This document shows positions 26,372-60,139 of a stretch of 64,000 nucleotides of DNA, in pieces (the first letter of the stretch is position 1; each line of letters opens with the position of its first letter). The stretch is from the NCBI RefSeq assembly GCF_000688335.1, contig NZ_JHZX01000001.1:124001-188000 (forward strand). Direction: 5' to 3'. Source of the DNA: Sediminibacter sp. Hel_I_10 (GTDB taxonomy: Bacteria > Bacteroidota > Bacteroidia > Flavobacteriales > Flavobacteriaceae). Under the pieces are notes generated by a model. That model was not told where the DNA came from. It made no database searches and saw nothing but the letters and a program-made list of their open reading frames with translations. The position numbers and the translations under genes were made by a program.

Positions 26372-27445
26372 ATGGAACATTTCGTAGTATCGGCCAGAAA
26401 ATATAGACCTCAAACCTTTAAAGACGTTGTGGGGCAACAGGCTATTACAAACACATTACTCAACGCAATTGAACATAACCACCTTGCGCAAGCACTACTA
26501 TTTACAGGACCTAGAGGTGTAGGAAAAACAACTTGTGCCAGAATTCTGGCAAAAATGATCAATAGCGATGGTAACGCTACAGGAGATGAAGATTTTGCCT
26601 TTAATATTTTTGAACTGGATGCCGCATCTAATAACTCTGTGGATGATATCAGGAATTTAACCGATCAGGTTCGTATTCCACCACAAGTTGGCAAGTACAA
26701 AGTCTATATCATTGACGAGGTGCATATGTTGTCTCAAGCGGCCTTCAATGCCTTTTTAAAAACCTTAGAGGAACCTCCAAAACATTGTATTTTTATTTTA
26801 GCAACTACTGAAAAACATAAGATCATTCCCACCATCTTATCGCGATGTCAAATTTTCGATTTCAAGAGAATTACAGTAAAAGACGCTAAAGATTATCTTA
26901 AATATATTGCAGAAGAACAGGGTATTACTGCAGAAGATGATGCCTTACACATTATTGCTCAAAAAGCAGATGGCGCCATGCGAGATGCCCTTTCTATTTT
27001 TGATAGGGTGGTAAGTTTTTCGGGTAAAAATCTCACTAGACAAGCGGTTACAGAGAACTTAAATGTTTTAGATTATGAAACCTATTTTGAAAGCACTGAT
27101 TTCATTTTAGAAAATAAGATTCCCGAATTATTAGTTCACTTTAACCATACCCTTTCTAAAGGATTTGATGGTCATCATTTTATTGCTGGATTAGCTTCCC
27201 ATTTTAGAGACTTGATGGTGTGCCAAAATGAAATGACGCTAGAATTATTAGAGGTTGGAGAAGACACCAAAGCAAAATATCTAGAACAATCTAGAAAAGC
27301 ACCATATCCTTTTTTAATAAAAGGTATCGAACTCGCTAATGAATGCGACCTCAAGTATAAAAGCAGTAAGAACCAGCGACTGCTGGTCGAACTTTGTTTA
27401 ATGCAACTTGCCTCTATCACTTTTGATGGAGAAAAAAAAAAATAG
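26372..27445 (+). CDS. dnaX: DNA polymerase III gamma-like subunit (clamp loader), frame 0 of dnaX
   Basis: The 357-residue product covers clamp-loader domains I-III: Walker A GPRGVGKTT at residues 46-54, Walker B/DExx in IIDEVHMLS, and the arginine-finger motif ILSRCQ. The cysteine-rich zinc module of E. coli gamma/tau is not present between Walker A and ELDAASNNSVDD. A TTG at 26366 is in frame, but the ATG at 26372 (MEHFVVSARKYRPQTF) is the normal start. The frame stops at TAG 27443-27445 straight after an 11-A run, exactly where domain III should end. The tau part continues in the +1 frame. This is either programmed production of gamma and tau or a one-base indel (see finding). Confidence 0.93.
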   Translation: MEHFVVSARKYRPQTFKDVVGQQAITNTLLNAIEHNHLAQALLFTGPRGVGKTTCARILAKMINSDGNATGDEDFAFNIFELDAASNNSVDDIRNLTDQVRIPPQVGKYKVYIIDEVHMLSQAAFNAFLKTLEEPPKHCIFILATTEKHKIIPTILSRCQIFDFKRITVKDAKDYLKYIAEEQGITAEDDALHIIAQKADGAMRDALSIFDRVVSFSGKNLTRQAVTENLNVLDYETYFESTDFILENKIPELLVHFNHTLSKGFDGHHFIAGLASHFRDLMVCQNEMTLELLEVGEDTKAKYLEQSRKAPYPFLIKGIELANECDLKYKSSKNQRLLVELCLMQLASITFDGEKKK

Positions 27446-28097
27446 CAAACATTACATAATACCACCCTCCTATTTTAAAGCAAAAGGCATCAAACCTATT
27501 GCTGTGACTGTTCCTAATGAGAAAAAAGCGGTAGCTTCACCTTCGGAAACATTAAGTCAAAAAGATACCCCAAAAGTGGAAGTACCAGCGACACAAACCA
27601 CCGAGGAAAAAGAAAATGTTCTCGACATTAAAAAGGATCAACGCACTTCAGGACTTTCCTTAAAAAGCATAAGAGCAAAAAAAGAGCATCAGATCAAACA
27701 AATGGATGTGGTGGTTGATCAAGAAGATTTACCAAAAAACGCTTTTACTGAAGAGGCTTTTAAAAATGCTTGGAATGCTTACATCGACCAACTCCATAAA
27801 AAAGGAGAAAAAATAATGGCGTCCATTTTAGAAATGGATACTCCTAAATTAAATGGCACCGATATCAAATTAGCATTTCCCAATGACACCCTAAAAGTCG
27901 AATTAGAACGTGCCCAATATCCGTTAATGGATTATCTACGAAAGCGATTGCTCAATTATGATCTCAACTTAGATATTAGTGTTAATGAGGAAATTTCTAA
28001 AAAATATGTCTTTACAGCATTAGATAAATACGAAAAACTTAAGGAAAAAAATCCCAATATTGAACTGCTCCGGAAGACTTTTGGTTTAGATGTTTAA
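27426..28097 (+). CDS. dnaX: dnaX tau-specific C-terminal extension (+1 frame)
   Basis: This frame overlaps the end of the gamma frame and continues for about 220 residues after the A-run (NSKHYIIPPSYFKAKGIKPIAV...). A low-complexity lysine/glutamate/threonine linker is followed by a compact C-terminal domain (from AFTEEAFKNAWNAYIDQL to LLRKTFGLDV). That layout fits the tau region that contacts polymerase and helicase. The fused product would be about 574 residues, a usual tau length for the phylum. An independent ATG exists at 27426 but would give a clamp-loader tail with no enzymatic part, so fusion with the upstream frame is far more likely. Confidence 0.8.
   Translation: MEKKKNSKHYIIPPSYFKAKGIKPIAVTVPNEKKAVASPSETLSQKDTPKVEVPATQTTEEKENVLDIKKDQRTSGLSLKSIRAKKEHQIKQMDVVVDQEDLPKNAFTEEAFKNAWNAYIDQLHKKGEKIMASILEMDTPKLNGTDIKLAFPNDTLKVELERAQYPLMDYLRKRLLNYDLNLDISVNEEISKKYVFTALDKYEKLKEKNPNIELLRKTFGLDV
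27432..27442 (+). other. A11 slippery run at the gamma/tau junction
   Basis: Eleven consecutive A residues follow GATGGAG and precede the frame-0 stop TAG. Loss of one A, or gain of two, in the transcript or a +1 ribosomal shift joins the gamma frame to the downstream frame as GEKKNSKHY. Confidence 0.75.
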
Positions 28098-50864: not shown

Positions 50865-50890
50865 AAAGCGACTCTCGAGTCGCTTTTTTT
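50865..50890 (+). terminator. Rho-independent terminator
   Basis: AAAGCGACTC/GAGTCGCTTT (50865-50874, 50877-50886) followed by a T-run, just after the LysM gene. Confidence 0.88.
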
Positions 50891-51028
50891 TTTGCCCTTC
50901 GGTGATGACATTTCTTTAATTCAACGATGGTCAATACAAGCAAGTCATCTTATCTAGCAACACATTGAAGTTTAATAAATGGAAATACCCTCATGAAAAG
51001 ATGATAAACAACATGCTGAGTTAGTCTG

Positions 51029-60012: not shown

Positions 60013-60108
60013 TCACTAGATATGGGATTATTAAACTAAAGGGGAACCTTATGAAGAAGACACATTTCGGAGTAATTAGAATTAACTATTTATTATAAAA
60101 AAAAAAAA

Positions 60109-60139
60109 AGAGACCATCTGTAATTATCAGATGGTCTCT
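60109..60139. terminator. Strong terminator-like hairpin
   Basis: AGAGACCATCTG/CAGATGGTCTCT (60109-60120, 60128-60139) between an A-run of about 13 and a T-run, able to act in both directions. Confidence 0.85.

Follow-up and report, generated by a model that had tools for sequence, protein, structure and literature searches.

The adenine run inside the dnaX gene of Sediminibacter sp. Hel_I_10 is probably a programmed slippage site, from which one gene would give both the gamma (357 aa) and the tau (574 aa) form. This view arises from a comparison of the gene with its counterparts across the class, which we take to be Bacteroidia in the GTDB naming. Judged by their sequences, three elements are conserved beyond the needs of the protein: the A-run itself, stop codons in both frames that do not lead to tau and a hairpin that immediately precedes the run in Flavobacteriaceae. 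A first-pass annotation of this DNA had already proposed programmed slippage for gamma and tau. The comparison supports this proposal well through the run, both stops and the hairpin; the hairpin and the register changes described below are additions to it.

The gene was examined in a stretch of 64,000 nucleotides, here called the window (Table 1), of a genome that consists of one 4.1-Mb contig. It encodes the clamp-loader ATPase domains I–III followed by a tau extension and, by its sequence, qualifies as a gamma/tau dnaX. Frame 0 could alternatively start at TTG 26366, and its last codons read GAA-AAA-AAA-AAA-TAG, with the TAG placed immediately 3′ of A11. Both this ending and a tau-like extension of about 220 codons in the +1 frame had been pointed out in the first-pass annotation and are confirmed at the positions given in Table 1. 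As a further possibility, the tau extension might be initiated internally and form a gene of its own; the +1 open reading frame in the list opens with TTG 27408 and does not include the ATPase part. The family model NCBIfam TIGR02397 is matched with 382.5 bits against a cut-off of 250. NCBIfam PRK14971 is matched by both pieces, over profile positions 1–369 (frame 0) and 417–613 (+1 piece, E 2.3e-21), either piece by itself scoring under the model cut-off. The Pfam models DNA_pol3_delta2 and DNAX_ATPase_lid score above their cut-offs, DNA_pol3_gamma3 and DnaX_C below theirs. A whole tau of 574 aa is predicted if one A is lost and of 575 aa if two are gained; the remaining run lengths between 8 and 14 A lead to predicted products of 356–362 aa.

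Table 1. Features of the putative dnaX slippage region (positions in the window)
Feature	Position	Strand	Remarks
dnaX frame 0, gamma form, 357 aa, ends GEKKK-TAG	26372..27445	+	start ATG 26372 as in P0002
Predicted RNA hairpin CUCUAUCA-CUUU-UGAUGGAG, 8 bp, last base touching the A-run	27412..27431	+	
A11 run, putative slippery site	27432..27442	+	
TAG, frame-0 stop of gamma, immediately 3′ of the run	27443..27445	+	
TAA closing the third (−1) frame, 5 codons past the run	27457..27459	+	predicted A9/A12 products end ...IANIT
Tau extension, +1 frame, 218 aa	27441..28097	+	stop TAA 28095-28097; family-model match; in-frame protein P0002

The window shows the hallmarks expected of a poly-A slippage dnaX, which are about nine or more A at the end of domain III (here eleven) and stops close by in both non-tau frames (here the abutting TAG and the TAA five codons further). 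It also carries a predicted stable hairpin that abuts the putative slippery run on its 5′ side, as stem-loop-assisted slippage demands. Two features of an E. coli-type site are missing, a downstream stem-loop signal and a shifted frame of −1. Among the homopolymers of at least 6 in the 64-kb window, the dnaX A-run alone marks a passage from one open frame into the next by the rule used; runs of 6–8 inside open frames amount to 108 cases when counted per strand. Two longer runs of the window, T10 at 50884-50893 and A13 at 60097-60109, lie outside the listed open reading frames of at least 150 aa. The whole genome contains 14 distinct runs of at least 11 A. Two of the 11 examined are located inside a long open frame (dnaX and one other gene) and one further run stands just 5′ of an ORF start.

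Sites for comparison came from 57 relatives, 80 named loci and 119 genomes of the class. The named loci are the best 80 of 588 confirmed stretches and are biased to near kin; ‘Flavobacteriaceae’ in all counts denotes the group coded f1 together with these 80 loci. Same-genus relatives of the window strain include Psychroserpens contigs (G006 = L059, G008 = L064), a genus which NCBI taxonomy places in Flavobacteriia, Flavobacteriales, Flavobacteriaceae. The counts omit two exact duplicates (L059, L064), one repeat (L151) and one fragment (L058), and two of the 57 relatives (G036 and G056) gave no strong dnaX match. At each site the script picked the longest stretch of A lying no more than 120 nt from an anchor in domain III; it starts 47–109 nt past the anchor, and at 52 in 134 of 213 sites. 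The register of tau was counted only where the tau frame stays open for at least 100 codons. This removed six of 219 run-bearing sites, namely five cut by contig ends (L044, L080, L087, L142, L214) and L127. Six class sites (L243, L249–L253) were left unplaced by the script and are outside the counts. A looser search placed five of them: L243 has A10 in frame, L251 has A9 with a 144-codon −1 frame, and L249, L250 and L252 are without a run of nine. Three sites deserve separate mention. In Winogradskyella immobilis (L080) the contig ends within the dnaX A-run (A13), as if the assembly broke there. The in-frame tau extension of Gillisia marina (L127) stops after about 60 codons, which either another break of the frame or a faulty assembly would explain. 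L057 (G048), with a genome of about 0.3 Mb and probably a reduced symbiont, has gamma only, and neither A-run nor tau extension was found in it.

A run of at least nine A (A9–A13) near the end of domain III is present at 219 of 240 placed sites. It occurs in 113/113 Flavobacteriaceae, 18/21 other Flavobacteriales and 88/106 sites of the rest of the class, and A10 is the commonest length in each group (99, 10 and 70 sites, respectively). The run is kept in all five rest-of-class stretches with a GC content of at least 55% (64–69%). Chance poly-lysine is disfavoured as an explanation by a control within the gene, since A≥9 is present at 6/106 of the other KK[KNR] sites in these genes. The remaining 21 of the 240 placed sites have no run of nine, and 19 sites combine an in-frame tau with the absence of such a run. 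An alignment of related dnaX genes had been advised in the first-pass annotation: the run proved to be conserved throughout Flavobacteriaceae, whereas an out-of-frame tau is not general (50/213). In-frame relatives devoid of the run had been named there as evidence against slippage. For the most part they were not encountered, as 163 in-frame sites keep the run (A10 in 140); the 19 sites just mentioned are of this kind. Outside the class, 20 sites were fetched and 19 placed, eight of them with A≥9 (L287, L289–L292, L297, L298, L302). These eight, from genomes of the same phylum, have A9–A10 near the domain III end, and the long frame is −1 in four of them (L287, L289, L290 and L291).

The non-tau frames are closed with similar regularity. 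Both end within 10 codons of the run at 207 of 213 sites (110/110 Flavobacteriaceae, 15/17 other Flavobacteriales, 82/86 in the rest), compared with 31–37% of control positions in tau extensions. Closure of both within 7 codons is seen in 103/107 Flavobacteriaceae and would be expected in 14.6 under synonymous recoding. One isoleucine codon creates a TAA stop when written ATA; it is ATA in 91/107 genes, while ATA makes up 20% of isoleucine codons gene-wide. Furthermore, a stop adjoining the run is retained via differing sequences after the run (TAG, TGA, TCTAA, CAATAA). From these patterns, the stops in both wrong frames look selected.

The hairpin of the window has a minimum free energy of −8.1 kcal/mol. 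Uniformity of codon use was scored for 296 columns over 110 distinct Flavobacteriaceae, and each of the nine columns that belong to hairpin or run comes within the first 15. In one of these nine, for example, ATC is used in 92/98 genes, where ATC accounts for 20% of isoleucine codons. Stem pairing is kept in 89.7% of cells (56 distinct relatives) versus 28–60% for slid partners. This count excludes 7 Aquimarina rows of 63 distinct ones for their longer hairpins; in these, too, a stem touches the run, but it has a larger loop or contains a bulge. Covariation of the hairpin is modest: its score of 0.162 (0.025–0.111 for slid partners) is reached by 0/500 shuffles, and double changes are not above the slid controls (4 versus 2–4 pairs, 8 versus 2–9 cells). 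On the same alignment RNAalifold returns a weak consensus of 4 pairs at −0.98 kcal/mol. In 98/110 Flavobacteriaceae the stability of the stem exceeds that of 95% of synonymous recodings (12/110 fail at 5%), and in 102/110 it exceeds that of 95% of same-gene windows. Outside Flavobacteriaceae, hairpins are enriched but patchy, with 20/106 sites below the 5% line (about 5 expected); at 25/106 sites a stem ends no more than 2 nt from the run and reaches −5 kcal/mol or lower. The run thus does not always need the hairpin. The 60 nt 3′ of the run give no structure signal, as 8/107 Flavobacteriaceae reach p≤0.05 with about 5 expected.

The frame in which tau lies changes between genomes. At the 213 sites with an open tau frame, window included, tau shares the register of frame 0 (register 0) at 163 sites; relative to frame 0, 42 sites have it in −1 and 8 in +1. 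The +1 register of the window (L001) is therefore the rarest of the three (8/213) and is shared with L009, L020 (P. damuponensis), L071 (Lacinutrix), L107 (Neptunitalea), L036, L165 and L177. The −1 sites carry A10 in 33/42 cases. The first-pass annotation had taken frame 0 as gamma, which is not the rule of the group: frame 0 is tau in 163/213 sites, where slippage would yield gamma. At least 15 register changes are required on a quick dnaX tree (110 Flavobacteriaceae, 107 labelled), which has 29 starred branches of 107 and leaves the place of the window strain unsettled. Register labels are no more clustered on this tree than shuffled labels in a group test, a result compatible with frequent real change or with scattered base-count errors. 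Single genomes could be miscounted, yet the shifted register is shared in places. For g32, open frames of 371–376 aa occur in 4/4 genomes met, and the two sites read (L139, L140) have A10 with tau in −1. Sister Lacinutrix sites (L070, L089, L071) carry A9, A10 and A11. At the protein level, forms of about the length of gamma occur as well, 10 of 120 database proteins among the matches listed being shorter than 400 aa; the seven of these ten that were read end at EKKK or four residues beyond, and one has 18 member sequences.

We infer from these comparisons that slippage of the RNA polymerase, aided by the abutting stem-loop, would fit better than ribosomal frameshifting. The polymerase would slip on the rA:dT hybrid once the copied run fills the 9–10 bp hybrid. 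A nascent hairpin at the upstream edge of the hybrid, as in an intrinsic terminator, would promote realignment. In the window strain, the unslipped A11 mRNA would give gamma, and an mRNA minus one A (A10) or plus two (A13) would give tau. A9 and A12 transcripts would lead to gamma forms of 361 and 362 aa. Slippage of this kind would fill all three frames, and the gain or loss of an A in the DNA would alter the product ratio only. The register could thus drift without loss of the tau frame. The occurrence of all registers, together with the closure of both wrong frames, fits such three-frame filling. Opposite shift directions within one gene function have been taken as a sign of transcriptional slippage (PMC3711429). 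We lean slightly towards a wider picture, in which the class shares a register-neutral cassette of A10 and both stops, with a terminator-like hairpin driving slippage in Flavobacteriaceae. Its output would cover three frames, the product encoded in the DNA would be near-neutral and change repeatedly, and a fusion gene of the same genus, described at the end, may use a run without hairpin.

A shift made by the ribosome, either −1 frameshifting on A_AAA_AAA or sliding on the poly-lysine A-run, has precedents in E. coli dnaX (PMC5009743) and in sliding on AAA-lysine stretches (PMC4363877), and registers 0 and −1 (205/213) are reachable by a −1 shift. In the window, however, a −1 shift misses the +1 tau and ends at TAA 27457. 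The missing downstream structure signal (8/107) also argues against it, and the two observations disfavour a −1 ribosomal shift as the sole mechanism. In addition, the abutting hairpin would by its geometry lie inside a decoding ribosome but at the exit channel of the polymerase, and the length held at A10 (99/113 Flavobacteriaceae) exceeds the 7 bases that suffice for a −1 site. It is improbable that a Shine-Dalgarno-like stimulator acts in bacteria which make little use of such signals, as is described for Flavobacterium johnsoniae (PMC12421855). Sliding of the ribosome could occur, most readily where the register is 0 or −1; as a whole, we regard a ribosomal shift as unlikely.

Two further readings concern the DNA itself. 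The run could be a phase-variable switch, with slipped-strand mispairing toggling tau among cells, and its variation among close species such as those of Lacinutrix speaks for this. Yet the run is mostly A10, and it is hard to see what stops in both frames and an RNA hairpin would do for a DNA switch. Turning off a replication gene such as dnaX would carry a cost, which further disfavours the switch; we regard it as very improbable. Alternatively, the tau part may be a decaying, frameshifted pseudogene fragment in a gene that works through gamma only. The only point for decay is that frame 0 stops at the run. The extension of the window comprises 218 open codons, is recognised by the family model and differs by 5 substitutions from P0002. 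It is likewise open over 190–253 codons in the 50 counted out-of-frame sites (under the 100-codon rule for counting), and apart from the five contig-end cuts only L127, which is in frame, stops early among the dropped run sites. Decay is disfavoured by these open extensions and is hardly credible.

The cassette stands whether the run of the window is A11 or A10. The protein P0002 (574 aa, from a 570,258-base contig) is identical to the window gamma over 356 residues, shows the 5 substitutions mentioned in the 218 residues of the tau extension and apparently comes from a sister strain. It reads EKKN straight into tau and is in frame, which implies A10 there and makes the eleventh A of the window either a recent change or a base-count error. 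An error could quite possibly be the cause, in agreement also with A10 relatives of the genus that differ by one A. Frame 0 would then run into tau, with the cassette present and tau as the default product. Such an error would affect this strain only and is compatible with slippage. Against it, A11 followed by TAG is also found in two other genomes of the genus, P. damuponensis JCM 17632 (L020 = L064) and L009, and the completeness of the genome of the window strain is 99.71%. No other run-associated frame break is seen in the window by the rule used, a weak argument as 11-runs are harder to count than runs of 6–8. On balance, we consider the eleventh A reasonably likely to be real.

Several known systems resemble the one proposed here. 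The GeneTack survey of 2013 reported a two-ORF dnaX in 17 genes of 12 genera, nine with A10, and proposed transcriptional realignment (PMC3711429). As in the window, gamma is in frame 0 and tau in a second frame reached via poly-A. The genes of that set require a −1 shift in the DNA sequence; the window, with A11, needs +1 and falls outside this pattern. The part of the account available to us names no 5′ hairpin, register changes or class-wide survey, and an overlap with the present group is possible. Thermus thermophilus dnaX is described as using transcriptional slippage on A9 with frame 0 as tau (Larsen 2000, as cited in PMC1088944 and PMC5009743). It shares with the window the A-run, nearby stops in the other frames and the production of gamma and tau; slippage is transcriptional in Thermus and would be so here. 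It differs by its A9, by a frame 0 which encodes tau and by the lack of mention of a 5′ hairpin in these descriptions. The same geometry is offered by a Roseiflexus insertion sequence (Penno 2015, as cited in PMC5009743), in which a 6-bp hairpin 5′-adjacent to U5C5 makes the polymerase drop one nucleotide. Both elements have a short perfect hairpin with a 4-nt loop directly 5′ of the run, and the productive slip loses one nucleotide there, as is proposed for the window; by analogy the direction would be the same, from A11 to the A10 needed for tau. The Roseiflexus run is a T5C5 heteropolymer in a transposase gene, whereas the window group has an A10/A11 homopolymer in a chromosomal replication gene. 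E. coli, too, obtains gamma and tau from a single dnaX gene, whose frame is shifted at an A-rich site. According to the same sources (PMC5009743, PMC3711429), it relies on A_AAA_AAG, a downstream stem-loop and an upstream Shine-Dalgarno-like stimulator; in contrast, the hairpin of the window group abuts the run and a downstream structure signal is missing. A single base can swap which dnaX product is the shifted one (PMC5009743).

A review of 2012 stated, in the portion consulted, that most bacteria beyond enterobacteria and Thermus are without a dnaX frameshift signature and may lack gamma (PMC3290774). For a flavobacterial endosymbiont, dnaX is reported as present and homopolymer frameshifts are said to keep function possibly intact, dnaX not being named in that context (PMC3971599). 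Titles and abstract beginnings in the open-access literature gave nothing on a hairpin 5′ of the dnaX A-run or on dnaX slippage in Flavobacteriaceae, and PMC3711429 alone combined dnaX, slippage and Bacteroidetes in the open-access literature searched. Gamma and tau from one gene, A9 slippage in Thermus and a two-ORF poly-A dnaX with A10 were thus already known. As far as these searches show, the constrained hairpin of Flavobacteriaceae, the class-wide spread in three registers, the +1 register and the measured stop selection are new. If the reading is correct, a large bacterial group would make both clamp-loader subunits via transcriptional slippage, contrary to the 2012 review, and one-frame annotation would report just gamma for every gene with a register other than 0. 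The constrained hairpin would provide a natural chromosomal system for polymerase slippage driven by nascent RNA on a homopolymer. The case suggests a general idea, that efficient slippage could let a reading frame drift neutrally.

A gene outside the window is a candidate for another slippage gene, on the basis of its sequence. In this 310-aa ORF (L259/L304, G000:C1:1534653-1535582) a 2TM membrane domain and dihydrofolate reductase are fused, and A11 stands exactly at the linker. No stable hairpin was found 5′ of this A-run. In other genera the two domains are separate neighbours, or are fused with no run up to A11. In L259/L304 the other two frames both stop within 3 codons, and across the genus the fusion is one frame with A9–A12 in 17/17 searched genomes, the other frames being closed within 7 codons.
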